Shown piece after piece: positions 1,709 to 38,198 of a DNA stretch of 64,000 bases. Origin of the DNA: Geodermatophilus pulveris (lineage in GTDB: Bacteria > Actinomycetota > Actinomycetes > Mycobacteriales > Geodermatophilaceae); the NCBI RefSeq assembly GCF_900188375.1, contig NZ_FZOO01000005.1, positions 186,001-250,000 of the forward strand, given 5' to 3'. The position numbers and the translations under genes were made by a program. Every line of letters starts with the position of its first letter. Positions within the stretch are counted from its first letter, which is position 1. The notes under the pieces were generated by a model. It searched no databases. It was not told the origin of the DNA and saw only the letters and a program-made list of their open reading frames with translations.

Positions 1709-4027
1709 TCACACCGGGCTCCGCGTCGGCGGCAGCGGGACTGCCGCACCCTCGGGCACCGGACCGCCGGGCAGGTCGTCGTCGCCCTCGCCGGGGGTGC
1801 CGCGGCGGCGGCGCACCAGGAAGCGCACCAGCCGGCGCAGGAACAGCAGCCCGAGCAGCGCGGCCGCGCCGATGGTCACGACCACCGAGATGGACCCGTA
1901 GGCGGTGCTCTGCACCTGCAGCCGCACCGGCTCCCCCAGCGGGACGCCGTCCGGGGTGGTCAGCGTGGCCGCGACGCTGAACCGCCCGGACTGCCGCACC
2001 TCGCTGGGCACCTGCAGCGTCGTGCGCTGCTGCGGGCCGAGCACCTGGTCGCTGATGTCGCCCACGGACAGCGCGTTGCCGCGGGTCTGCACCTGCAGCT
2101 GGACGCGGAGGGCGAAGGGCAGGTCGTTGAGGACGGTGAGCACCAGCGGCGCGTCGCGGGAGGCCAGGCTGTAGGTGCCCTCGGCGGGGGCGAGCAGGGT
2201 GACCCGCTCCAGCAGGCGGGCCGTCGTGGCGCGCACGTCCGCGGCGGCCGCGGCGAAGGCGACCGGGTCGTCCCGCCAGGCCGCCGAGCTGCTCCGGGCC
2301 AGGGCGGCGTCCCAGGGCGCCAGCACCGCGTCCGCGTCCCCGGCCACCGCGCCGGCGAGGTCCTCCCGGACGTGGGCGGCGGCGGCGACGTCGGCCAGCC
2401 CCTCGGGCTCCAGCCCGTCGGGACCGGAGGGGGGCGCCAGCCCGCCGGTGTCGGTGACCGGCCCCTCGCCCAGCCCGGCCACCGTCGCCGGCCGCAGCCA
2501 CGGCAGCCCCGCGGCGGCGGCCATCATGGTGCCCACCGCCGCCGGGGCGGGGTCGACCTCCCGCGGCGGGGCCACCAGCACGCTCTGCCCCCCGGGGGCG
2601 TCGCCGGCCTGCGCGGCGAGCAGCGCGAGCTCGGCGAGGTGCCGCTGCTCGGCGGCCCGGCCGCCCCCCGGCGTCCGCTCCGCGGTCGCCGCGAGCTCGC
2701 CGAGGACACCGTCGGCGACGAGGGCGTCGACCGGCCCGCCGTCGGTGGGCAGCGTCGTGCGGGCCGCCGCCGGGCCGCCCGCACCCAGCGCGGCCTCGCC
2801 GTCGGCGAGCGCGCCGGGGTCGAGCACGACCTCCTCGATGCCGCCGCCGGCCAGCACCTCGAGGGTCCCCAGGCGCATCGAACCGCCGACCGCCCAGGCC
2901 AGGTCGGTGCGCGCCTCGACGCCCAGGACCTCCCGGAGGATGCCCGCGCCGGCGGCCCCGGTGGCCTCGGCCGGGGGTGCGTCCGGTGGGGCGGGGGCCG
3001 CGTCGGGGTCGTCCTGCGCGGTGCCCTCGGGGCTGCCGGGGAGGCTGCGGGCGACGACCCGCGCCAGGCCGGTCGCGGTCAGCGCGTCGGCGTCGACGTC
3101 GCCGTAGGGCAGCGCGACGACGGGGTGGTCGGCGGCCACGGCGCGCAGCCGGTCCAGGAAGGCGGCCGCCTCGTCGGTGCCCTCGCCGCCGTCCGCGTCG
3201 CCGGCGACGGCATAGGGGCCGGCGGTCATGAGCTGCAGCTCCTCGACCAGGGCGGGGTCGACGGCGAGGGTCACCGGCACCACCGGGCCCGGGTCGACGC
3301 CCTCGGCGGGGACCGACCGCGGCAGCCGCTCCACCGTGGCCAGGACGCGGTCCAGCCGCCCGCCCGCCGCGACCTCCGCGGCCAGCTCGTCGTCGACGAA
3401 GGTGCCGGAGGCGTCCCGGTGGGTGCGCTCGACCAGCGGCCACAGCCAGGCCACGTCGGTCGGCGCGGCCGGCGCCGCCGGGGGCTGGACCAGGTAGGTG
3501 GTCAGCTCCCCGACCCGGCGCCGGTCCCCGTCGGACCCGATGCCGTTGAGGTTGAGCAGCACCGGGTAGACGCCGTCCCCGCCGATGGCCAGCGCGTCGG
3601 TGGTCGTGGTCAGCGTGAAGGGCACCGAGTCCTGCGGGCGGAGCTCGTCGGCGACGTCCTGGAACGGGGTGGCGGCGGCGGCCACCGGCTCGGACCCGCC
3701 GGCGAGCGCCTGCAGCTCGCCGCGGGTGGCGACGGGCGCGCCGCGCTGCAGGCGCACGTCGAGGTCGGTCAGGGTCTCGGTGCCGGTGTTGGTCAGCTCG
3801 CCGGCGACGGTCACCGGGGCGCCGGGGGTCAGGGTGCGCGGCTCGAGCACGGTGAGCTCCACGGTCACCGGTCGGTCGTCGGCACCGGGGGCCGGGTCCT
3901 CGGGCGCGGCCGCCGCGGCCGGTGCCAGCGCCACCAGGGGGACGGCGAGCAACGCGGCCAGCGCGCCCCCGGCAGCCGCCCGCCGGGGGGGTGCTGTGCC
4001 TGCCGGTGCGCGAGCCGGCCCGCTCAC
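1709..4027 (-). CDS. DUF6049 family secreted/membrane-anchored protein
   Basis: A 772-residue protein of the conserved actinobacterial family found between the NUDIX gene and murJ (Rv3909-like). It has an N-terminal signal segment (residues ~15-40, Ala/Leu-rich), a large extracytoplasmic part with an NEW3/Ig-like opening ([19 protein letters not shown]), and one C-terminal membrane helix (AALLGLLFL) followed by an Arg-rich cytosolic tail. The GTG start overlaps the NUDIX stop in a GTGA arrangement, which implies translational coupling. The molecular function is not established. Position beside murJ suggests a cell-envelope role, which is inference. Confidence 0.85.
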
Positions 4028-4542: not shown

Positions 4543-6048
4543 GTGTCCGGTCAGCCGCAGAGTCCTGCCCAGGACGGCGCCCCCGTGCCGGCCGCCGTCC
4601 AGGAGACGGTGCGGCAGCTGGTCGACGTCTCCCCGGTGCTGGCCCGGCTGGGCGAGCGGTTCACCGCCGCCGGCCACGAGGTGCACCTGGTCGGCGGGTC
4701 GGTCCGCGACGCGCTGCTGGCCGCCGGTCGCGGCCGCCCGGAGGCGCCGGCCCCGGCGCCCGGTGACCTCGACGTCACCACCGACGCCCGGCCCGAGCAG
4801 GTCCTCCGCCTGCTGCACGGGTTCGCCCGTTCCACGTGGGACACCGGGATCGCGTTCGGCACGGTGGGTGCCGAGGTGGACGGCGTCCGGCTGGAGATCA
4901 CCACCTTCCGCGCCGACCGCTACGACCGCGAGTCGCGCAACCCGGAGGTGGCCTGGGGCGACTCGCTGGTCGACGACCTCGCCCGCCGCGACTTCACCGT
5001 CAACGCGATGGCCGTCTCCCTCGGCCCCGACCGCACCGTCACCGACCCCCACGGCGGGCTGGGCGACCTGCTCGCCGGGCGGCTGCGGACGCCGGGGGCC
5101 GCGGTGGACTCCTTCGCCGACGACCCGCTGCGGATGCTGCGCGCGGTCCGGTTCGTGGCCCAGCTCGGCCTCACCCCGGCCGACGACGTGGTCGACGCGA
5201 TGACCTCGCTGGCGCCGGAGCTCGGGCGGATCACCCCCGAGCGGGTGCAGGTGGAGCTCTCCAAGACGCTGCTGCAGCACTCGCCGCGGGCGGCGCTGGA
5301 GCTGTTCGTCGCCACCGGGCTGGCCGACGTCGTCCTGCCGGAGCTGTCCGCGCTGCGGATGGAGATCGACGAGCACCACCAGCACAAGGACGTCTACACC
5401 CACTCGCTGACCGTGCTGGACCAGGCGATCGCCCTGGAGGAGGCCGACCCGGAGCACGGGTCGCCGGACCTGGTGCTGCGGCTGGCCGCGCTGCTGCACG
5501 ACGTCGGCAAGCCGGCCACCCGGCGGCACGAGCCGCGCGGGCGGGTGTCCTTCCACCACCACGAGGTGGTCGGTGCCAAGCTGGTGCGCCGGCGGCTGAC
5601 CGCGCTGCGGTACCCCAAGGACGTGGTCGAGGCGGTCGCCCGGCTGACCTTCCTGCACCTGCGCTTCCACGGCTACGGCGGCGGCGAGTGGACCGACTCC
5701 GCCGTGCGCCGGTACGTCACCGACGCCGGCGACCTGCTGCCCCGGCTGCACAAGCTGGTGCGCTCGGACTGCACCACGCGCAACCGGCGGCGCGCCGCGG
5801 CGCTGGCGGAGACCTACGACTCGCTGGAGCGGCGGATCGCCGAGCTGTCGGCGGCCGAGGACCTCGCCCGGGTGCGCCCGGACCTGGACGGCAACGCCAT
5901 CATGGCCGTCCTCGGCATCCCGCCGGGCCGCGTGGTCGGCGAGGCGTGGACCTTCCTCAAGGAGCTGCGGCTCGAGCGCGGCCCGCTGGACCCCGAGCAG
6001 GCCGAGGCCGAGCTGCGCGCGTGGTGGGCCCGGCGGGACGGCGCCTGA
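4543..6048 (+). CDS. pcnA: CCA tRNA nucleotidyltransferase / poly(A) polymerase family with HD domain
   Basis: A 501-residue class II nucleotidyltransferase that adds or repairs the tRNA 3' CCA end. The head domain shows GGSVRD at residues 51-56 and the metal-binding DLD at 75-77. The RRDFTVNAMA segment and the LRMLRAVRF helix of the tRNA nucleotidyltransferase family follow. The C-terminal half carries an HD domain (LLHDVGKP, H319-D320), as in actinobacterial homologues. GTG 4543 is chosen because a -10 hexamer lies 8 nt upstream and the conserved region follows soon after. A one-mismatch parS-like sequence lies inside at 4829-4842. Confidence 0.93.
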   Translation: MSGQPQSPAQDGAPVPAAVQETVRQLVDVSPVLARLGERFTAAGHEVHLVGGSVRDALLAAGRGRPEAPAPAPGDLDVTTDARPEQVLRLLHGFARSTWDTGIAFGTVGAEVDGVRLEITTFRADRYDRESRNPEVAWGDSLVDDLARRDFTVNAMAVSLGPDRTVTDPHGGLGDLLAGRLRTPGAAVDSFADDPLRMLRAVRFVAQLGLTPADDVVDAMTSLAPELGRITPERVQVELSKTLLQHSPRAALELFVATGLADVVLPELSALRMEIDEHHQHKDVYTHSLTVLDQAIALEEADPEHGSPDLVLRLAALLHDVGKPATRRHEPRGRVSFHHHEVVGAKLVRRRLTALRYPKDVVEAVARLTFLHLRFHGYGGGEWTDSAVRRYVTDAGDLLPRLHKLVRSDCTTRNRRRAAALAETYDSLERRIAELSAAEDLARVRPDLDGNAIMAVLGIPPGRVVGEAWTFLKELRLERGPLDPEQAEAELRAWWARRDGA

Positions 6049-6089
6049 CCCGGCTGGAGGCCGACCCCCCGGCTGCCGATCGCAGACAC

Positions 6090-6998
6090 GTGCACGACGA
6101 GCCGACCGGCGCCCCGGACCCGCGGCCGCCCGCCCCGCCGGCCGGCCGGCGCCGCCGCGCGGGACGGCGCCGGCTGCTCGCCGTCCCGCTCGTCGCCGGC
6201 TGCGCCCTCGCCGGCGCCCTCCTCACCGGGGTGGTGCCCCGGCCCGGACAGCCGCCCGCGGCGGCCGGGGCGCCGGCCGCCTCCCCGGACCGGCACGTGC
6301 CGGTCGCCGCCCCGCTCCCGGCCGACCGGCCCACCCCGGGCGCCGGCGCGGCCGCCGCGCCGATCGGCTCTCCGCCGCCGGCGCCACCCGGTGGCGGCCC
6401 GCACGTCTTCTCGCTGCTGCAGGACAACGGCGTCTCGCCGGTCGCCTACGACCCGTGCCGGGTCGTCCACTACGCCATCCGGCCGGACGGGGCGCCCGCC
6501 GGCGGGGAGGAGCTGGTGCACGCCGCCGTCGCCCGGATCAGCCAGGCCACCGGCCTGGCCTTCCGGTACGACGGTCCGACCGACGAGGTGCCCAGCCCGC
6601 AGCGGGAGACCTACCAGCCCGCGCGCTACGGCGACCGCTGGGCACCGGTCCTCGTCGCCTGGCAGACCGAGGCCGAGCAGCCCGACCTGGCCGGGGACGT
6701 CGTCGGCCGGGGCGGCAGCACGGCGGTCTCCCTGGGCGACGGGCCGCGGGTCTACGTCACCGGCACGGTCTCGCTGGACGCCGGCCAGTTCCCGGAGGTG
6801 CTGGCCGCGCCGGACGGCGCGACCACCGCCGCCGGCATCGTGCTGCACGAGCTCGCCCACGTGGTGGGCCTGGCCCACGTGGAGGACGCCGGGCAGCTGC
6901 TGCACCCGGAGACGGTGCCCGGCGTCACCGACCTCGCCGCCGGGGACCTCACCGGGCTGGCCCGGCTGGGTCGCGGGCAGTGCGTCCCCGGCCTGTGA
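6090..6998 (+). CDS. Membrane-anchored matrixin-like zinc metalloprotease
   Basis: A 302-residue protein with a short Arg-rich cytosolic start, one membrane helix at about 29-50, a Pro/Ala-rich linker to ~100 and an extracytoplasmic catalytic domain. The metzincin zinc motif is present: H253-E-x-x-H257-x-x-G-x-x-H263. The usual Met-turn after the third histidine is not obvious; GQLLHP occupies the place where family members often have Q-I/L-M-x-P. Two cysteines (C123, C298) could form a disulfide. The GTG start lies 41 bp after pcnA. The 3' end overlaps the convergent MFS gene by 50 bp. The substrate is unknown. Confidence 0.75.
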   Translation: MHDEPTGAPDPRPPAPPAGRRRRAGRRRLLAVPLVAGCALAGALLTGVVPRPGQPPAAAGAPAASPDRHVPVAAPLPADRPTPGAGAAAAPIGSPPPAPPGGGPHVFSLLQDNGVSPVAYDPCRVVHYAIRPDGAPAGGEELVHAAVARISQATGLAFRYDGPTDEVPSPQRETYQPARYGDRWAPVLVAWQTEAEQPDLAGDVVGRGGSTAVSLGDGPRVYVTGTVSLDAGQFPEVLAAPDGATTAAGIVLHELAHVVGLAHVEDAGQLLHPETVPGVTDLAAGDLTGLARLGRGQCVPGL

Positions 6999-8262
6999 GG
7001 CCACCGTCCGGGCCGCCCGGCAGGGGCGAGCGGGCGCCCAGGACGGCGGCGAGCAGGTAGGCGGCACCGACGGCGACCAGGGCCGGCCGGGACTCGCCGT
7101 CGGCGGGCAGCAGGAGGGCCGCGGCCAGCAGGGCGAGGACGTAGCTGACGTTGACCAGCGTGTCGTAGACGGAGAACACCCGGCCGCGGACCTCGTCGTC
7201 GACGACCCGCTGCAGCGTGGCGTCCACGCAGATCTTCACGCCCTGCCCGAGGAACCCCAGCACGGCGGCGGCCAGGGCGATGCCCTCGGGCCGGAACGGC
7301 CAGGCCAGCACGGCCAGCAGCGGTCCCCCGGCGGCCAGCAGCAGGGTCACCCACCGGGCCGTGCCGAGGCGGCGCACCGCCCGCGGCGTCACCACCGCCG
7401 CCAGCAGCGTGCCGGCCGCGCCCGCGGCGACCGCCGCGCCGACCCCCAGCAGCCCGCCACCCGCGGGTGCGGCGGCGCGCGCGTACAGCAGCGTCATCAG
7501 CGTGAGCAGCCCGAGGCACAGCCGGTGCACGGTGACGACGGCCAGGGCGGTGACCGCCGGCGGGCGCGCCCGCACGTGCCGCACCCCGGCCGCCATCCCG
7601 GTGAGCACCTGGCGGGCGGAGGCCCGGGCCGCGCCGTCGTCCGGGCCGAGCGCGCGGTGCCCGAAGCCGGCGGCCACCGCCGCGGCCAGCAGGTAGGGAC
7701 CGGCCGCGCCCAGGGTGACCAGCGCGTACCCGCCGTCCCCGGTGAGGCCGGCGGCCTGCTGCACGGCGATCGCGGTCGCGCCGCCGGCGACCGCGGCCAC
7801 CGCGCCGGAGGTCGTCGACAGGGCGTTGGCCGCCACCAGGTCGGCCGTGGTGTGCGGCAGGGACGCCGACAGCGCGGAGAGCACGAAGCGGGCGACGGAG
7901 AACAGCAGCAGCCCGGTCAGGAGCAGCGGCGCACCGGCGGTGCCGGCGGCCACGAGCAGGGCCAGCACCGCGACCAGCCCGGCGCGCAGCACGCCGGCGT
8001 GCACCAGCACCCGCCGCCGGCTCCAGCGGTCCAGCCAGACGCCGGCGAACGGGCCCACCACCGACCAGGGCAGCAGCAGCACGGCGAAGCCGGTGGCGAC
8101 GGCGAGCGGGTCGGCGGCCCGCTGCGGGTCGAACACGAGGGTGCCGGCGAGCGCGGCCTGCAGCACGCCGTCGCCGAACTGGGCGGACAGCCGGGTGGCC
8201 AGCAGCCGGCGGAAGCCCGGGGCGGACAGCAGGGCGCGCACGGTCGACCCCGCCTGCGGCAC
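6949..8262 (-). CDS. MFS transporter
   Basis: A 437-residue polytopic protein with about 12 hydrophobic segments and MFS signatures, including the loop 2-3 motif GVWLDRWSRRRVLVHAGV and a second-half loop of the form DEVRGRVFSVYDTLVN. Such a loop is typical of the DHA-type/MFS_3 exporters of actinobacteria. The substrate is unknown. The GTG start at 8262 has a TAGGGT hexamer 6 nt upstream and no Shine-Dalgarno, suggesting a leaderless transcript. Its C-terminal 50 bp overlap the convergent metalloprotease gene, so no intergenic terminator separates the two. Confidence 0.85.
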   Translation of the reverse strand: MPQAGSTVRALLSAPGFRRLLATRLSAQFGDGVLQAALAGTLVFDPQRAADPLAVATGFAVLLLPWSVVGPFAGVWLDRWSRRRVLVHAGVLRAGLVAVLALLVAAGTAGAPLLLTGLLLFSVARFVLSALSASLPHTTADLVAANALSTTSGAVAAVAGGATAIAVQQAAGLTGDGGYALVTLGAAGPYLLAAAVAAGFGHRALGPDDGAARASARQVLTGMAAGVRHVRARPPAVTALAVVTVHRLCLGLLTLMTLLYARAAAPAGGGLLGVGAAVAAGAAGTLLAAVVTPRAVRRLGTARWVTLLLAAGGPLLAVLAWPFRPEGIALAAAVLGFLGQGVKICVDATLQRVVDDEVRGRVFSVYDTLVNVSYVLALLAAALLLPADGESRPALVAVGAAYLLAAVLGARSPLPGGPDGGLTGRGRTARDPAGPAR

Positions 8263-30829: not shown

Positions 30830-31372
30830 GTGGAGGTCCTCTTCCTCGTCCTCGGGGCGTTCGGCGTCGGCGTCCTGCTGCTGGCCCTGGTCGTCGGCGA
30901 GATCGGTGACCTCGGCGACGCCGACGGCCCGTTCTCCGTCCCGGCGCTGGCCGCGCTGGCCGGCGGGGTGGGCTTCGGCGGCGCCGCGGCCGCGTCGCTG
31001 CTGCCCGAGGACCTGCCGGACGCCGGCCGGGCCGCGCTCGCGCTCGCCGCCGGGCTGGCCCTCGCCGTCCCGCTCGCCTGGGCCGCGGTCCGGCTGTCCC
31101 GCGGGCTGGGCGACATGCCGACCGCGCCCACCCTGACCCGCCACCACCTGGTCGGCGCCCAGGGCGTCGTCGTGTCCGCCGTCCCGGCGCCGGGCTACGG
31201 CGAGGTCCGGCTGGTGCTGGCCGGCCAGCAGCTCAAGTTCGCGGCGAGCAGCGACACGCCGCTGCCCGCCGGCACCCCCGTGTACGTCGTCGAGGCGCGC
31301 AGCGAGACCGCCGTCCACGTCGTCTCGACCGCACCCGACCCCGACCCCGGAGGTACCGGTCCGTGGACCTGA
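30830..31372 (+). CDS. NfeD-like membrane protein
   Basis: A 180-residue protein with three to four hydrophobic segments in the first ~100 residues and a C-terminal OB-fold typical of NfeD (LVGAQGVVVSAVPAPGYGEVRLVLAGQQLKF in two halves). NfeD proteins are encoded beside flotillins and are thought to work with them in membrane microdomains. The GTG at 30830 follows GGGAGAGGGG. Its last 10 bp overlap the flotillin gene, showing an operon. Confidence 0.85.
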   Translation: MEVLFLVLGAFGVGVLLLALVVGEIGDLGDADGPFSVPALAALAGGVGFGGAAAASLLPEDLPDAGRAALALAAGLALAVPLAWAAVRLSRGLGDMPTAPTLTRHHLVGAQGVVVSAVPAPGYGEVRLVLAGQQLKFAASSDTPLPAGTPVYVVEARSETAVHVVSTAPDPDPGGTGPWT

Positions 31373-32886
31373 CCCTGCTCATCGCCCTCGGCGGCATCGC
31401 CGTCCTGGTGCTCGTGCTCGTGCTGTTCGTGCTGTCCCGGATCAAGGTCGCCGGGCCCAACCAGGCCTTCATCGTCACCGGCCGGCAGGGCCGGGAGGTC
31501 ACCAGCGCCTCGGGGATCACCTCCCGGGACGCCTCCGGGCAGAAGGTCGTCATGGGCGCGAGCGTGTTCGTGCTCCCGGTGGTGCAGAAGCTGCACACCC
31601 TGGACCTGTCCAGCCGGCGCATCCCGGTGGGCATCCGCGGCGCGGTGTCCAAGCAGGGCGTCAAGTGCGACCTCGAGGGCGTGGCCATCGTCAAGGTCGG
31701 CGGCACCGAGGACTCCGTGCGCGCCGCCGCGCAGCGCTTCCTCAACCAGCAGGAGGGCATCGACACCTTCACCTCCGAGGTGCTCGCCGGCGCGCTGCGG
31801 TCGATCGTGGGCCGGCTGACCATCGAGGAGATCATCCGCGACCGGGCGGCGTTCGCCTCCGCCGTCGCGGAGGAGGCGGAGTCCTCGCTCACCGGGCAGG
31901 GGCTGGTGCTGGACACCTTCCAGCTGCAGGACATCCAGGCCGAGGGCAGCTACCTGGCCGACCTCGGGCGCCCCGAGGCCGCCCGGGTGCTCAAGGAGGC
32001 CTCCATCGCCGAGGCGCGCGCCCGGCAGGCCGCCCAGCAGGAGCAGCTGCTCGCCGACGAGGCGATCGCGGTGGCCCAGCGCCAGCTCGCGCTGCGGCAG
32101 GCCGAGATCACCGCCGAGACCGACGCGGCCACGGCCCGCGCGGCGGCCGCCGGCCCGCTGGCCCAGGCCGCCCAGGACCAGGCCATCCTCACCGAGCAGG
32201 AGAAGGTGGCCGTCCGGACGGCGGCGCTGACCGAGCGGCAGCTGGACACCCAGGTGCGCCGGCCCGCCGACGCCCAGCGGTACAAGGTCGAGCAGGAGGC
32301 CGAGGCGCGCAAGAACGCCGCGATCCTCACCGCCGAGGCGCAGCGGCAGGCGACGATCGCCGCCGCGCAGGCGTCCGCCGAGCAGGCCCGGCTCTCCGGT
32401 GAGGGCGAGCGGGCCCGCCGGTCGGCGCTGGCCGAGGCGGAGGCGGTCGAGGGCGCCAAGCGCGGCGAGGCCGAGAAACTGCGCCGGCAGGCGATCGCGG
32501 ACGCCGTCGAGCGCGAGGGCACCGCCGAGGCCGCGGCGATCCTGGCCCGCGGTCAGGCCGAGGCGGAGGCGCTGGACGCCCGCTCGGAGGCGTTCGCCAA
32601 GTACGGCGAGGCGGCCGTGCTGGAGATGCTGGTCAAGGTGCTGCCGGAGGTCGTGCAGGCCGCCGCGGCGCCGCTGTCGAGCGTGGACAAGATGACCGTC
32701 ATCTCCGCCGACGGCGCCGGCGCGCTCGGCCGCTCCGTGGCGGCCAACGTCGCGCAGGGGCTGCAGCTGTCCGGCGACCTCACCGGGGTGGACGTCGCCG
32801 CCCTGCTGCGCCGCTTCGCCGCCGCGGACGGCGGGGCCACCCGGATCCCCATCACCACGACGGACGGGGACGGCACCCAGCCGTGA
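31363..32886 (+). CDS. floT: Flotillin-like SPFH-domain protein
   Basis: A 507-residue flotillin: a single N-terminal membrane helix (~5-26), an SPFH/PHB domain to ~200, then a long Ala/Glu/Arg-rich coiled-coil (~200-430) with EAEA-type repeats, and a C-terminal oligomerisation region. Flotillins scaffold ordered membrane domains. Gene order nfeD-floT with a 10-bp overlap supports joint function. The stop codon is embedded in a 15-bp inverted repeat shared with the convergent thiD side. Confidence 0.92.
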   Translation: MDLTLLIALGGIAVLVLVLVLFVLSRIKVAGPNQAFIVTGRQGREVTSASGITSRDASGQKVVMGASVFVLPVVQKLHTLDLSSRRIPVGIRGAVSKQGVKCDLEGVAIVKVGGTEDSVRAAAQRFLNQQEGIDTFTSEVLAGALRSIVGRLTIEEIIRDRAAFASAVAEEAESSLTGQGLVLDTFQLQDIQAEGSYLADLGRPEAARVLKEASIAEARARQAAQQEQLLADEAIAVAQRQLALRQAEITAETDAATARAAAAGPLAQAAQDQAILTEQEKVAVRTAALTERQLDTQVRRPADAQRYKVEQEAEARKNAAILTAEAQRQATIAAAQASAEQARLSGEGERARRSALAEAEAVEGAKRGEAEKLRRQAIADAVEREGTAEAAAILARGQAEAEALDARSEAFAKYGEAAVLEMLVKVLPEVVQAAAAPLSSVDKMTVISADGAGALGRSVAANVAQGLQLSGDLTGVDVAALLRRFAAADGGATRIPITTTDGDGTQP

Positions 32887-32949: not shown

Positions 32950-33762
32950 TCACCGCTCCCAGATGCCGGCGAAGTGGTGCACCGGGCCGTGCCCGGAGCC
33001 GACGCCGAGGGTGCCGCCGGCCTGCAGCGCCCGCTGCAGGTAGTCCCGCGCCGGGTCGACCAGCCGCGCCCAGTCGCCGGTGCGGTGCCGGGCGGCCAGC
33101 GCGGCCAGCGCGGAGGCCAGCGTGCAGCCGGTGCCGTGCGTCGAGGTGGTGTCCACCCGGGGCCGCCGGGTGACCGTCACGCCGTCGGCGGTGGCCAGCA
33201 CGTCGACGCTGTCCTCCCCGCCGAGGTGGCCCCCCTTGAGCAGCACCGCCCGAGGGCCGAGGCCCAGCAGCGCGGTGGCCTGGGCGGCCAGCTGGTCGAC
33301 GTCGGTGGCCGGCGGCACGCCGAGCAGGACGGCGGCCTCGGGCACGTTGGGCGTCACCAGGTCGGCCAGCGGCAGCAGCTCGCTGCGGACGGCGTCGACG
33401 GCGGCGTCGTCGATGAGCCGGTCGCCGCTGGTCGCGACCATCACCGGGTCGCACACGACCGGCCCGCCCGGGCGGCCGGCCAGCGCGGCGGCGACCGCGT
33501 GCACCACGTCGGCGGTGCCGAGCATGCCGAGCTTGGTGGCGTGCACCGTGACGTCGGCGAACAGCGTGGCCAGCTGCTCGGAGACGAACCCGGCCGGGAC
33601 GGCGTGCACGCCGGTGACGCCGCGGGTGTTCTGCGCGGTCAGCGCGGTGAGCACCGCCGTCCCGTAGACGCCGAGGGCGCTGAAGGTCTTCAGGTCGGCC
33701 TGGATGCCGGCGCCGCCGCTGGGGTCGCTGCCCGCGACGGTCAGCGCCACGGCGGCGCTCAC
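32950..33762 (-). CDS. thiD: Hydroxymethylpyrimidine/phosphomethylpyrimidine kinase
   Basis: A 270-residue ribokinase-fold kinase phosphorylating HMP to HMP-PP for thiamine synthesis. It shows [43 protein letters not shown] and the anion-hole/catalytic motif [12 protein letters not shown]. The GTG overlaps the thiE stop (GTGA), so translation is coupled. It is the last gene of the riboswitch-controlled thiM-thiE-thiD operon. Confidence 0.95.
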
Positions 33763-34415
33763 CGGGCCGCCCCGATCGACTCGCGCAGCGCCCGGGCGGC
33801 CTCCTCCGGGTCGGCCGCCGCACAGATCGCCGAGACGACGCACACGCCGTCCACCCCGGTGGCGGCCACCTCGCCGGCCCGGTCGGCGTCGATGCCGCCG
33901 ATCGCGACGGTCGTGAACCCCCCGGCGCAGGCGGTGTCGGCCAGCGCGCCGACGCCGTCCGGGCCGAGCGCGGCACCCGCGTCGGGCTTGGTCGGCGTCG
34001 ACCACACCGGGCCGATGCCCACCAGGTCGACGGTGCCGGCCGGCAGGGCGCGGGCGACGTCCAGCTCGGCGGCGGAGGAGACGCTGAACCCGAGCAGCCG
34101 GCCGGGGCCCAGGAGGGCCCGCACCTCGGCCGGGGGCAGGTCGTCCTGGCCGAGGTGCACGCCGTCGGCCCCGGCGAGCAGCGCGACGTCGACCGCGTCG
34201 TTCACCCACAGGGCCACGTCGGGCCGGTCGGCCAGCGCGGCCTGCACCGCGCGGGTGAGCGCCAGCAGCTCGCGGCGGGAGGCGGTCTTGTCGCGCACCT
34301 GGACGGTGGTGACGCCGCCGGCCACGGCCGCGCGGACGACGTCGGCCACCGGGCGGGGCCGGCACAGTGCGGTGTCGGTGACCAGGTAGAGGCTCGGGTC
34401 GAACGGCCGTCTCAT
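33759..34415 (-). CDS. thiE: Thiamine-phosphate synthase
   Basis: A 218-residue TIM-barrel enzyme joining HMP-PP and HET-P to thiamine phosphate. Family blocks include [53 protein letters not shown] and [11 protein letters not shown]. The ATG overlaps the thiM stop (ATGA) and its stop overlaps the thiD start. Confidence 0.95.
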
Positions 34416-35200
34416 CGGACGTCGGCCGCGGCCAGCGCCTCGCCGTCCACGGCGTCCAGCGCGTCGAGCCAGGCGGGGGTGAAGGTGCCGGGGCCGCCGG
34501 CCACCGCGGCCGCCCGCTCGGCGGCGACGGCGACGTGCGCGTGCGCGGCGACCGCCCCGGTGAGCGGGTCCCCGGTCGCGGCCACGTAGGCGGCCACCAG
34601 GGCGCCCAGCGCGCAGCCGGCGCCGGTGGTGCGGGTGAGCAGCGGCGAGCCGCCGCCGACGCGGACGGTGCGCCGCCCGTCGGTGACGAGGTCCACCTCG
34701 CCGCTCACCGCGACGACCCCGCCGGTGCGGCCGGCCAGCTCGGCGGCGGCCTCGGTGGCGTCCTCGGCGCTGTCGGTGCTGTCCACGCCGCGGCCGCCGG
34801 CGCCCGCGCCGGCCAGCGCCATGACCTCCGAGGCGTTCCCGCGGACGACGGTCGGCCGCAGGGTCACCAGCTCGGCGGCCAGCGCGGTGCGGAAGGCCAG
34901 CCCGCCGACCGCCACCGGGTCGAGGACCCACGGCGTGCCGGCCGCGCCGGCCGCGCGGGCGGCCAGCCGCATGGCCTCCGCCGTGCGGGCGGTGACGGTG
35001 CCCACGTTGACCAGCACCGCGGAGGCGACCGCGGCGAAGTCACCGGCCTCCTCGGGGGCGTCCACCATCGCCGGCGCGGCACCGGCGGCGAGCAGCGCGT
35101 TGGCGGTGACCGCCTGCACGACGGTGTTGGTCAGGCAGTGGACCAGGGGGGTGCGGGTGCGCAGCGCCGCGGAGGCCGCGCGCAGGTCGAGGACCGGCAT
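34412..35200 (-). CDS. thiM: Hydroxyethylthiazole kinase
   Basis: A 262-residue kinase of the thiazole salvage branch. Signatures are [41 protein letters not shown] and [13 protein letters not shown] with the catalytic cysteine. It is the first gene after the minus-strand TPP riboswitch. The operon makes thiamine phosphate from salvaged thiazole and HMP; de novo genes are not in the window. Confidence 0.95.
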
Positions 35201-35207
35201 GCCGGTG

Positions 35208-35280
35208 ACATCCCTTCGCCAGTGCGAACTGGAGCAGGTTCGACGGGTGTGCTCTCAGTCCCCGGGCGGGGACACCCCGT
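35208..35280 (-). ncRNA. TPP riboswitch upstream of thiM
   Basis: On the minus strand the aptamer core is plain: GGGGTGTCCCCGCCCGGGGA, then CTGAGAGCACACCC, GAACCTG, AGTTCGCACTGGCGAAGGGA. The CTGAGA and GCGAAGGGA signatures and the stems match the THI box. It ends 8 nt before the thiM ATG, so control is probably at ribosome access. A -10-like TTACGT (35291-35296) lies just upstream. Confidence 0.93.
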
Positions 35281-35330
35281 GCCGCGCCGAACGTAACACC
35301 GGCCGGGCCGGTACCGTCCCGGCCACTGAC

Positions 35331-35416
35331 CACGGGAGCCCGCACCGAGCGGGCTGAGAGGGCGGCTGGGGCCGCCGACCGTCCGGACCTGTCCGGGTCG
35401 TGCCGGCGTAGGGAGG
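35331..35416 (+). ncRNA. TPP riboswitch upstream of the zinc dehydrogenase
   Basis: A second THI box, on the plus strand: CACGGGAGCCCG, GCGGGCTGAGAGG, GACCGTCCGGACCTG, TCCGGGT and GGCGTAGGGAGG. The terminal GGGAGG is also the Shine-Dalgarno of the downstream GTG (6 nt away), so ligand binding should block translation. A TACCGT hexamer (35312-35317) is a likely -10. Confidence 0.93.
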
Positions 35417-35422
35417 CCGTAC

Positions 35423-36436
35423 GTGCGTGCCGTCCGTTTCTCCGGGGTGGGCCGCCCCCTGACCGTCGAGGACGTCGAGGCGCTGCGCCCGGGTCCGGGC
35501 GAGGTGCTGCTGGACGTCGCCGCCGCCGGGGTGTGCGGCACCGAGCTGCACTTCCTCGACGGCCTGCTCACCCCGGCCCGGACGCCGATCACCCTCGGCC
35601 ACGAGGTCGCCGGGGTGGTGGCCGCGCTGGGCGAGGGGGTCGACGGCGTGGCGGTGGGCGACCGGGTCGCCGTCCACTACCTGCACGCCTGCCACCGGTG
35701 CCGCTGGTGCACGGCGGGGGACGACCACCTGTGCGACGCACCGCTGGGCTTCCTCGCCTTCGCCACCGACGGGGGGTTCGCCGAGCAGGTCGCCGTCCCG
35801 GCCTCGTCGGTGGTGCCCGTACCGGAGGGGGTGGACCTGCCCACGGCGGCCACGCTGTGCTGCAGCGGGACGACGGCGCTGCACGCGGTGGCGGTCGCCG
35901 AGGTGCGGTCCGGCGCGGACGCGGTGGTGTACGGCGTCGGCGGCGTCGGGCTGGCCCTCGTGCAGGTGCTGCGGGAGGCCGGCGCGCGGGTGGTCGCGGT
36001 GGGCCGCAGCCGGGCGAAGCTGGAACTGGCGCGCGAGCTGGGCGCCGGGGTGACGGTGGACGCGTCCTGCACCGACGTCGCCGCCGCCGTCCGGGAGGCC
36101 ACCGACGGTCGGGGGGCCGACGTGGTGTTCGAGCTGGTCGGCACCAAGGAGACCGGTGTCGCCGCGCTCGCCGCCCTCGGCAAGCGCGGCACGCTGGTGT
36201 ACGTCGGGTACTCCGCCGACCGGGTGGAGGTCGACCCGCTGGCGATGGTGGTGCCCGAGCAGCGGATCGTCACCTCGGTGGGCAACCGGCGGGCCGAGCT
36301 GGTCGCGGCCCTGGACCTGGCCGCCCGCGGCCGGCTGGTCACCAGCGTGACGACGCACCCGCTGGCGGACGCCGCGCGGGTGCTCGAGGACCTGCGCGCC
36401 GGCCGGGTGGTGGGGCGCGCCGTCCTCGTGCCTTGA
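35423..36436 (+). CDS. Zinc-dependent MDR dehydrogenase under TPP control
   Basis: A 337-residue medium-chain dehydrogenase. The catalytic zinc site is in AAGVCGTELHFLDG and GHEVAG. The structural zinc has four cysteines in CHRCRWC...LC. The Rossmann motif is VVYGVGGVGLAL. It oxidises or reduces an alcohol/aldehyde with NAD(P). The substrate is not known, but the upstream TPP riboswitch ties it to thiamine metabolism, for example handling of a thiazole or pyrimidine alcohol. That role is inference. The GTG start is dictated by the riboswitch-borne Shine-Dalgarno. Confidence 0.88.
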   Translation: MRAVRFSGVGRPLTVEDVEALRPGPGEVLLDVAAAGVCGTELHFLDGLLTPARTPITLGHEVAGVVAALGEGVDGVAVGDRVAVHYLHACHRCRWCTAGDDHLCDAPLGFLAFATDGGFAEQVAVPASSVVPVPEGVDLPTAATLCCSGTTALHAVAVAEVRSGADAVVYGVGGVGLALVQVLREAGARVVAVGRSRAKLELARELGAGVTVDASCTDVAAAVREATDGRGADVVFELVGTKETGVAALAALGKRGTLVYVGYSADRVEVDPLAMVVPEQRIVTSVGNRRAELVAALDLAARGRLVTSVTTHPLADAARVLEDLRAGRVVGRAVLVP

Positions 36437-36470
36437 GCCGGGCGGCACCGTCCGAGGCGGGGATCGCGGG

Positions 36471-38198
36471 TCAGCCGCCGGTCAGCGCCACCGGCGGCAG
36501 CCAGTCGGCGTCCAGCAGCTCGGCGACCTCCCGCAGCGCCGAGGTGTCCGCACCGGCGGTGGAGCCGCTGACCGCCAGCCGCTCCACCATCACCCGGGCC
36601 ACCTGCTCCTCGACGGTGTCCGCGGCGAACGCCACCCGCCACGGGGAGACCTGGCCGTCGCGGTGGGTGCGGCCGGTGACCTGGCGGGCCTGGATGCCGG
36701 AGAACCGCGGCTGGTGGAACAGCCCCACCCGCGGCCTGGTCGAGGCGGTCGCGCCGCCGGGCAGCAGCTCGCCGGCGTGCAGGCTGATCGACGCGGTCAC
36801 GGTGAACACGCACACCGGCGCCGCCCCGGTCTGGAAGCGCAGCCGCTCGGCCTCGACGTCGAACCGGTCCCGCCCGTAGATCGACGCCACCGCGACGCCG
36901 CAGTCCAGCAGCGCCTCCCGGATCGGGTCGGCCGCCGTCTCCACGAACTCCACCGACACCGCGACCTGGCGCTCGGCCTCCACCTGGGCCCGCACCCAGT
37001 CGACGGTGGCCCGGGCGCGGATCAGCCCGGCCTTCTGCCGGAACCGCAGCAGCGCGGCCCGCCCGCGCGCGGTCTGCCGGGCGCGGCGGGCCAGCTGCAT
37101 CTCCGCCCGGAACTCCTGCCACTCCGACTCGTAGGCGGCCCGCTCGGCCGGCGTGAGCGCGACCGGCGTCCCGGTGACCGACACCGGACCCCACGGCGCC
37201 GGGCGGTGCAGCGTGGCGGGCGGGTCGCCGCCGGCCAGCCAGCCCTGCAGCCGGGCCAGGTCGGCGCGGCGGGCGTCCGGGTCCTCGGTCCAGGCCCACC
37301 CGTACCGGCCACGTTCCACGTGGAACCCGTGCTCGGCGAGCCGCGCGGGCAGGTCCGCCCAGGCGCGCAGCGGGTCGCCGTGCCGCTGGGCGAACTGCGG
37401 GGCCAGGTAGGGCAGCTCCAGCGGCGTGTGCGCCGGGGTGGCGGTGGCGGCGATGACGAAGGGCACGTCCCTCGCCCGCCCGGCGCCGGAGACGGCCCGC
37501 CAGTGCGCCCACCGCTGGGTGGTCGTGTGCCGGACCATGTGCGCCTCGTCGGCGATGACGACGTCGAACCGCAGGCCGGCGACCTTGGCCAGCCGGTCCC
37601 ACGTGGTGACGCACCAGCGCAGCCCGCCGTCGCCGAAGCCGGCGATCGACCGGGTCCAGTGCGGGACGGTGATGGCGGCCGGGCGGTCGGCGACGACCAG
37701 CACCCGGTCGCCGCCGCGCGCCTCGCAGACCTCGCGGGCGGCCAGGACGGCGGTGCCGGTCTTGCCCACGCCCGGGTCGTCGCCGAGCAGGAACACGCGG
37801 TGCCCGGCGGCCGCGGAGGCGACCACGGCCTCCGCGCCGGTGGCCTGCTCCTCGCGCGGGACCAGCGGCCGGCCGGGCGGGACCGGGCGCGGGGTGTCGT
37901 TGAGCTCGTCCTCGAGGAACCGCTCGACGGTGTACGGCGGCGGGTCGTAGGGCGCCAGCGCCGGGGGCAGCGCGCGGCCGACCCAGACGTGCGCCTGCAG
38001 CTCCGGGTGCCACCGCGCGCCCGGCGCCGGGGCGCGGAAGGGCACGGCGAGCACCCACACCCGCTCCCCCGGCCCGGCGACCGGCCGCTCGGCGGGGGGC
38101 GGCGCGGTGCGGCGGGCCGGCGTCTTCCGCCGGGTGGCCGTCGCGGTGCGGGTGGCCCCGGGAGAGCGGCTGGTCGTCCGGCGGCGCCGTCCGGGCAT
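36471..38198 (-). CDS. SNF2/DEAD-like helicase-type ATPase
   Basis: A 575-residue SF2 protein. Motif I is GDDPGVGKTG, motif II ADEAH (VIADEAHMVR), motif III ATATPAHT and motif VI QVTGRTHRDGQ. The Q-x-x-G-R-x-x-R/H-x-G-Q end is SNF2-like. The N-terminus is Arg/Thr-rich, followed by a VPFRAPAPGARWHPELQ segment reminiscent of the GARW motif of DUF5710-type domains in mobile-element proteins. No nuclease partner is adjacent. A perfect parS core lies inside at 37313-37326. GGAGGAGAGGAG precedes the ATG. Function is unknown; a DNA-repair or element-derived role is possible. Confidence 0.75.
   Translation of the reverse strand: MPGRRRRTTSRSPGATRTATATRRKTPARRTAPPPAERPVAGPGERVWVLAVPFRAPAPGARWHPELQAHVWVGRALPPALAPYDPPPYTVERFLEDELNDTPRPVPPGRPLVPREEQATGAEAVVASAAAGHRVFLLGDDPGVGKTGTAVLAAREVCEARGGDRVLVVADRPAAITVPHWTRSIAGFGDGGLRWCVTTWDRLAKVAGLRFDVVIADEAHMVRHTTTQRWAHWRAVSGAGRARDVPFVIAATATPAHTPLELPYLAPQFAQRHGDPLRAWADLPARLAEHGFHVERGRYGWAWTEDPDARRADLARLQGWLAGGDPPATLHRPAPWGPVSVTGTPVALTPAERAAYESEWQEFRAEMQLARRARQTARGRAALLRFRQKAGLIRARATVDWVRAQVEAERQVAVSVEFVETAADPIREALLDCGVAVASIYGRDRFDVEAERLRFQTGAAPVCVFTVTASISLHAGELLPGGATASTRPRVGLFHQPRFSGIQARQVTGRTHRDGQVSPWRVAFAADTVEEQVARVMVERLAVSGSTAGADTSALREVAELLDADWLPPVALTGG
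37313..37326. other. parS: parS centromere site inside the helicase gene
   Basis: GTTCCACGTGGAAC, identical to the core at 16561. It encodes part of FHVE in the helicase, so the site is maintained within coding sequence. Confidence 0.8.

Follow-up and report, generated by a model that had tools for sequence, protein, structure and literature searches.

The question raised by this locus is why a gene for a zinc-binding medium-chain dehydrogenase/reductase (MDR) shares its leader region with the thiamine gene thiM. The locus lies on a 64,000-nucleotide stretch of Geodermatophilus pulveris DNA (contig NZ_FZOO01000005.1, positions 186,001 to 250,000)—hereafter the window, in whose coordinates positions are given—and the 222 nt gap between the starts of thiM (35200, minus strand) and the MDR (35423, plus strand) contains two thiamine pyrophosphate (TPP) aptamers that face each other. 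The divergent riboswitch pair would repress two branches of a single vitamin B1 module, with the MDR as an NADPH-dependent enzyme that reduces an oxidized B1 building block; as a whole, we consider this reading evenly balanced between right and wrong. Its parts carry different weight: TPP binding and repression by the plus-strand aptamer is very probable, membership of the MDR in B1 metabolism is probable, and NADPH-dependent reduction of a B1 precursor aldehyde is possible, falling somewhat short of an even chance. The two aptamers, the buried Shine–Dalgarno sequence, the clade-wide pairing of aptamer and MDR, the gene context, and the intact zinc sites are apparent from the sequence.

An Rfam scan of positions 33000–38000 at E ≤ 0.1 gives two matches, both to RF00059, whose gathering score is 54.3 bits. 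The aptamer in the thiM leader (35194–35289, minus strand) scores 54.9 bits, above the gathering score, and is matched at the same place (L061) by the R1 TPP model, which was built from 23 aptamers. The aptamer in the MDR leader (35322–35431, plus strand, with a paired core at 35327–35419) scores 50.2 bits at an E value of 5.9e-8. The matched spans are 32 nt apart. This agrees with the first-pass annotation, which had described two opposed TPP riboswitches in a gap of this length; its interval of 35208–35422 holds the pair but clips both elements. The boxes CUGAGA, ACCUG, GGCG, and AGGGA—presumably the ligand contacts of the TPP aptamer—do not vary across the 23 aptamers aligned, both window copies included. 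Orthologous plus-strand aptamers reach the gathering score in 11 of 13 loci of one set (L011 and L012 fall below) and in 5 of 13 loci of a second set. A divergent minus-strand aptamer is present in 11 loci (L004–L010, L012, L015, L016, and L057), to which the window adds one more, and reaches the gathering score in 10 of the 11, the value for L057 not being given. In the aptamer alignments, the covariation score and the share of paired cells are higher than in 500 of 500 shuffles, which supports the three-way junction fold; neither strand, folded on its own by free energy, shows excess stability (z of 0.08 and −0.18). Support for these predicted aptamers comes from the covariance model, from covariation, and from conservation.

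The Shine–Dalgarno sequence of the MDR, GGGAGG, lies inside the plus-strand aptamer at 35411–35416, 6 nt ahead of the GTG start, as had been noticed at first sight. In the cmscan alignment, P1 is formed by 35327–35331 with 35415–35419, one pair being a mismatch; P4 extends with its 3′ side into AGGG. Positions 35411–35412 are paired in P4 and 35415–35416 in P1, and GGGAGG therefore has two Gs in each helix. AGGGA is present in all 28 leaders inspected, and its end is 6–11 nt from the assumed start in 26 of them (8 nt in 18). The exceptions are L017 with 14 nt and L018 with 22 nt, the latter becoming 8 nt if an upstream in-frame ATG is the start. A terminator scan finds no terminator-like hairpin and hence no sign of transcription attenuation. 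Since the Shine–Dalgarno sequence lies in the aptamer, the plus-strand element probably acts by direct translational occlusion: with TPP bound, P1 and P4 would close and bury GGGAGG, so that the MDR is not translated, and at scarce TPP the MDR would be made together with ThiM, ThiE, and ThiD. The element resembles RF00059 leaders with a buried ribosome-binding site in its boxes, in P1–P5 with an optional P3a, and in carrying the Shine–Dalgarno sequence in the 3′ part of the aptamer; it differs from the usual RF00059 leaders in that the target is an MDR dehydrogenase and that two copies face each other. Burial of the ribosome-binding site in the aptamer is described, in the part of the source available, as most common for TPP, preQ1, and SAM-I riboswitches (PMC2258182).

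Promoters within ~30 bp of each other had been proposed for the two transcripts. A strict sigma-70 consensus scan finds no promoter, but a TANNNT hexamer occurs at a near-fixed place before the plus-strand aptamer in 26 of 27 leaders, compared with a mean of 0.8 and a maximum of 5 in 2000 mononucleotide shuffles—for a position range chosen after viewing the leaders, and with the contig-cut L020 not entered. The sole miss, L016, results from a misplaced anchor, and TAGCGT is present there. The window features the −10-like hexamers TACCGT for the MDR transcript (35312–35317, plus strand; TAGCGT in many relatives) and TACGTT for the thiM transcript (35290–35295, minus strand), separated by 16 nt. 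As judged by eye, TANNNT, mostly in the form TACGTT or near it, precedes the minus-strand aptamer in 12 of 12 leaders viewed. The proposed promoters therefore have some support. Each transcript would probably start almost at its aptamer.

A pattern scan covering 84,980 species, with one genome each, yields 57 loci with relatives of the MDR. An aptamer lies directly upstream of the MDR in 27 of the 29 loci of its own clade (L020 being cut by the contig start), and none of the 28 loci outside the clade has a TPP-model match at E ≤ 1. Fourteen of the 27 aptamer-bearing loci match by construction because their aptamers supplied rows of the model, but the gathering-score counts given above come from the independent Rfam model. 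In the family, a search of 112 genomes finds the MDR in 30 at E ≤ 1e-60, and a same-strand upstream aptamer is found in 30 of these 30 loci (L077 truncated by the contig end). G034 is not counted, as its aptamer is at a contig end and the MDR is, therefore, probably cut. The association reaches metagenome-assembled genomes (MAGs) of two other classes, namely L017 (Gaiellaceae, Thermoleophilia) and L018 (Egibacteraceae, Nitriliruptoria), at 59 to 64% protein identity. Conservation within the family and outside it supports the riboswitch anatomy given in the first-pass annotation and its prediction of a TPP-regulated zinc dehydrogenase. In a quick tree of 40 rows, which carries a long-branch warning, the 26 aptamer-bearing rows form one group with L019 and L029 at a Shimodaira–Hasegawa-like approximate likelihood ratio support (SH-aLRT) of 100, and two changes of aptamer state are needed. 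Eight short or distant loci were left out of the tree and L051–L060 were never entered; two fragmentary loci of the clade are affected, L039 being among those left out and L057 among those not entered. No plasmid-borne relative is found in 72,556 records at an E value of 1e-60. Within the window's class, sampled by 394 genomes, a search at 1e-72 finds an MDR relative in the own genome only, its sensitivity being limited by the scoring of five candidates per listed genome. The 299 genomes of the class of L017 contain one further match, L105, with 46% identity. Upstream of L105, there is no RF00059 match, and the best R1 score, 10.3 bits at E 0.055, falls inside an apparent preceding coding frame. 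The stretch before the L105 MDR (~2526–2700, minus strand) looks, by eye, like the last part of a gene for an aldehyde dehydrogenase.

These data also bear on two other views of the plus-strand aptamer. The first is that it is a by-product, a THI box copied into or drifting in a shared promoter region without control over the MDR. The subthreshold score of the window copy and a degenerate copy in one Modestobacter are in its favor, but the near-fixed spacing is kept where thiM is not adjacent, as in Modestobacter, L013, L014, L017, and L018, and we regard this view as hardly credible. The second, that the ligand is a relative of TPP and not TPP itself, could draw on the joints J2-4 and J4-5, which are variable in the plus-strand group. 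The four boxes are invariant in the 23-row alignment, however, and the layout of the aptamer is that of the leader preceding a cytosine/thiamine-type permease in the same genome, which leaves this view very improbable as well.

The MDR (35423–36436, plus strand) is an open reading frame of 337 amino acids and features two Pfam domains over the cut-off, ADH_N and ADH_zinc_N, at 103.1 and 93.9 bits. C38, H60, E61, and C147, which we take to be the catalytic zinc ligands, and C90, C93, C96, and C104, likewise assumed to be the structural ones, are invariant in 14 rows; the zinc sites, as read from these residues, are intact. The glycine-rich nucleotide motif formed by G171, G173, G174, and G176 is also invariant in 14 rows. 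The enzyme carries an NADP-type motif and is predicted to use NADP(H). The ratio of nonsynonymous to synonymous substitution rates (dN/dS) is 0.12 to 0.30 among six relatives including the window, and the predicted structure has a predicted local distance difference test score (pLDDT) of 93.9. The best of the named NCBIfam equivalogs reaches 182.7 bits at a cut-off of 344, and no NCBIfam cut-off is reached among the matches listed (25 of 30). Geodermatophilus provides the nearest named relatives of the MDR. Among solved structures, the closest ones are those of general alcohol dehydrogenases. Named families and nearest structures were ruled out as a source of the function because they are too general. 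Compared with the zinc alcohol dehydrogenases 1llu, 3meq, and Rhodococcus ruber ADH-A, the MDR is distinguished by the NADP-type motif and by the CGTELHF segment of its clade.

The genes around the MDR point to B1 metabolism. In the window, thiM, thiE, and thiD follow each other on the minus strand, divergent to the MDR: thiM, the hydroxyethylthiazole kinase gene, at 34412–35200 (PF02110 with 251 bits, NF006830 over its cut-off); thiE, the thiamine-phosphate synthase gene, at 33759–34433 (PF02581, TIGR00693 over its cut-off); and thiD, the hydroxymethylpyrimidine (HMP) phosphate kinase gene, at 32953–33726 (PF08543 with 284 bits in the frame 32953–34365), a span that runs from the Pfam start to the frame end with the start codon not fixed. 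The MDR is found beside thiM–thiE–thiD in most Blastococcus and Geodermatophilus loci. L011, a MAG labeled Acidimicrobiia, has aptamer, MDR, thiD, and thiE on one strand. The MDR of L011 groups with Geodermatophilaceae, which may reflect a mislabeled bin or a gene transfer. Co-location with thi genes under the same riboswitch class holds for the MDR except in Modestobacter, where it is away from thiM in placed genomes, and in L013 and L014 (by coordinates G006 and G016), where thiM lies elsewhere and the MDR still has its aptamer. Of the family genomes with and without the MDR, respectively, thiM occurs in 29 of 30 and 53 of 82 (Fisher p 0.0005), thiG in 25 of 30 and 35 of 82 (p 0.00012), and thiC in 7 of 30 and 3 of 82 (p 0.0036); the tests are made without correction for kinship, and four of the MDR-containing genomes are 72 to 81% complete. 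Within two of four genera, the corresponding counts for thiM are 6 of 6 with the MDR versus 10 of 17 without, and 6 of 6 versus 2 of 10.

The proposal of a role in thiazole or pyrimidine salvage is consistent with thiM–thiE–thiD in the window, with thiD–thiE in L011, and with the 29 of 30 genomes that hold thiM, but the L018 and L011 assemblies, both with the TPP–MDR pair, give no thiM match. We favor the MDR as a reductase since its regulation, its partners, and its cofactor motif are then explained with the least strain: the enzyme would convert an aldehyde of the thiazole or of the pyrimidine to the corresponding alcohol, the substrate of ThiM or ThiD. The MDR may be an overlooked helper in recycling B1 building blocks. 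More tentatively still, it would represent an undescribed salvage step, in which a TPP-repressed NADPH-dependent zinc MDR turns B1 aldehydes into hydroxyethylthiazole (HET) or HMP and makes aldehyde fragments a usable vitamer pool for bacteria that, as is the case here, give no ThiC match and probably live by scavenging.

The host genome (99.99% complete) contains three TPP matches, the window pair and one of 57.1 bits (G000:C9, L001, L091) before the permease, which belongs to the cytosine/purine/thiamine family; two TenA-family genes lie there on the other strand, with ThiG ~2.7 kb beyond the aptamer. No ThiC match is found in the host genome, and ThiC is matched in only 10 of the 112 family genomes, so that these bacteria probably depend on scavenged pyrimidine; the host itself is, by its gene content, likely an HMP auxotroph. 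In 4 of the 10 ThiC-containing genomes (G027:C70, G039:C41, G044:C35, and G034:C182), ThiC lies within ~4 to 8 kb of the MDR or aptamer on the same contig, which suggests a more extensive thiamine cluster that was acquired or retained as a unit.

Other partners are found where thiM is not adjacent. In Modestobacter, a gene of one sequence cluster follows the MDR by 13 to 44 nt in 9 of the 10 loci with sequence beyond the MDR (L020, L022–L028, and L043; L021 is the exception in the gene calls), and the follower is a major facilitator superfamily (MFS) transporter gene in L022 (6056–7306, plus strand) and L025—a candidate transporter of B1 precursors. L017 has a PfkB-family kinase gene at 6045–6860 (plus strand), 27 nt after the MDR. 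Its product was considered as another ThiM or ThiD and rejected, the best matches being 2-keto-3-deoxygluconate kinase and other sugar kinases; matches to TM0415 are full-length but weak.

The main rival, unlikely in our estimate, is a TPP-sparing backup, in which the MDR serves redox metabolism, for example in the disposal of aldehydes or carbonyls, when TPP enzymes fail. B12 riboswitches, which control B12-independent isozymes, offer a parallel. The switch logic, with the enzyme made at low TPP, fits such a backup, as do the general alcohol dehydrogenases as closest structures, the next gene of the window on the opposite strand after the MDR, and the varying partners, an MFS transporter in Modestobacter and a PfkB kinase in L017. 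Against it stand the position of the MDR beside thiM–thiE–thiD in most Blastococcus and Geodermatophilus loci and before thiD–thiE in L011, and the presence of thiM tracking the MDR in two of four genera. Quite improbable is the opposite direction or another derivative, the MDR oxidizing a precursor alcohol or thiamine with NADP+, perhaps for trapping or export. The transporter gene after the MDR in nine Modestobacter loci would suit export, and zinc alcohol dehydrogenases catalyze reversibly; yet destruction of a precursor under TPP starvation makes little sense, and the NADP-type motif favors reduction.

Several observations weigh against a TPP-controlled precursor reductase. On the RNA side, the plus-strand aptamer of the window stays under the RF00059 gathering score, and its joint between P2 and P4 reads CCGGA versus UCGAA in most relatives. 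Doubly changed pairs are not above shuffles (7 versus 6.1 and 9 versus 8.9), the number of further pair types likewise not, and P1 pairing is weak, with 41.7% and 64.8% of cells paired. The identical leaders of L027 and L089 from Modestobacter, outside the 23-row alignment, have UUGAGA for CUGAGA and ACCCG for ACCUG, perhaps a decaying switch. The clade members L019 and L029 (Pseudonocardiaceae by record) are without aptamer, nothing in their leaders scoring above 6.1 bits with filters off; the MDR can hence be run without the switch. On the enzyme side, the NADP assignment rests on two residues, and the L017 kinase is closer to sugar and inositol kinases than to ThiM or ThiD. The genomes of L018, L019, and L011, two of which (L018 and L011) are MAGs, have no thiM match, which weakens a strict partnership with ThiM. 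Among the 112 family genomes, 82 are without a detected MDR, and 53 of those hold thiM, so that thiazole salvage in itself does not require the MDR.

As far as the literature could be searched, the riboswitch is ordinary and the MDR is a new member of the TPP regulon. A TPP-switched MDR is absent from the literature among the matches listed, a mention in a 2002 study of thiamin regulons being possible; that comparative study reportedly names a regulated hypothetical oxidoreductase, oarX. The literature search gives no co-mention of thiamin, riboswitch, and "zinc-binding dehydrogenase," and the passages seen from part of the papers that mention both TPP riboswitches and alcohol dehydrogenases draw no link between the two. 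This agrees with the initial remark that such a dehydrogenase is not among the standard thiamine genes, with the restriction that an oxidoreductase of another family has been reported: in Corynebacterium glutamicum, RNA-seq detected a TPP riboswitch on cg0825, a putative short-chain oxidoreductase for which the authors, in the portion of the paper available, speculate on a role in thiamine-dependent processes (PMC3890552). Both cg0825 and the MDR are actinobacterial oxidoreductases of undefined role under a TPP riboswitch, but cg0825 is of the short-chain type according to the same portion (PMC3890552), whereas the zinc MDR belongs to another protein superfamily. The thiM riboswitch, which lies in this gap on the other strand, shares ligand class and kind of leader with the MDR element, and thiM is an already reported TPP target, for example as C. 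glutamicum cg1655 (PMC3890552, same portion). In Streptomyces lividans, two TPP leaders are described in the accessible text, for the thiG operon and thiamine transport (PMC8079986). The TPP regulon is elsewhere described as thiamin biosynthesis and transport genes, in a main text that, as far as available, lacks the word dehydrogenase (PMC3766115). The salvage vitamers given are HMP, aminomethylpyrimidine (AmMP), formylaminopyrimidine (FAMP), HET, and carboxylated HET (cHET), the main texts, to the extent available, being without the word aldehyde (PMC5899164 and PMC10470507). The present locus adds a conserved, uncharacterized enzyme clade to the TPP regulon. Any additional salvage enzyme would indicate the B1 fragments in circulation, and if the MDR is a precursor-aldehyde reductase, the list of B1 vitamers widens beyond these five.

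Two further features of the neighborhood can be appreciated. A flotillin-like Band 7/SPFH protein is encoded at 31363–32886 (plus strand) of the window and adjoins the thiamine genes, and L004 has a Band 7 gene at 844–2364 in the same neighborhood. L007 carries a cobalamin riboswitch at 7190–7363 (minus strand) with 102.3 bits.
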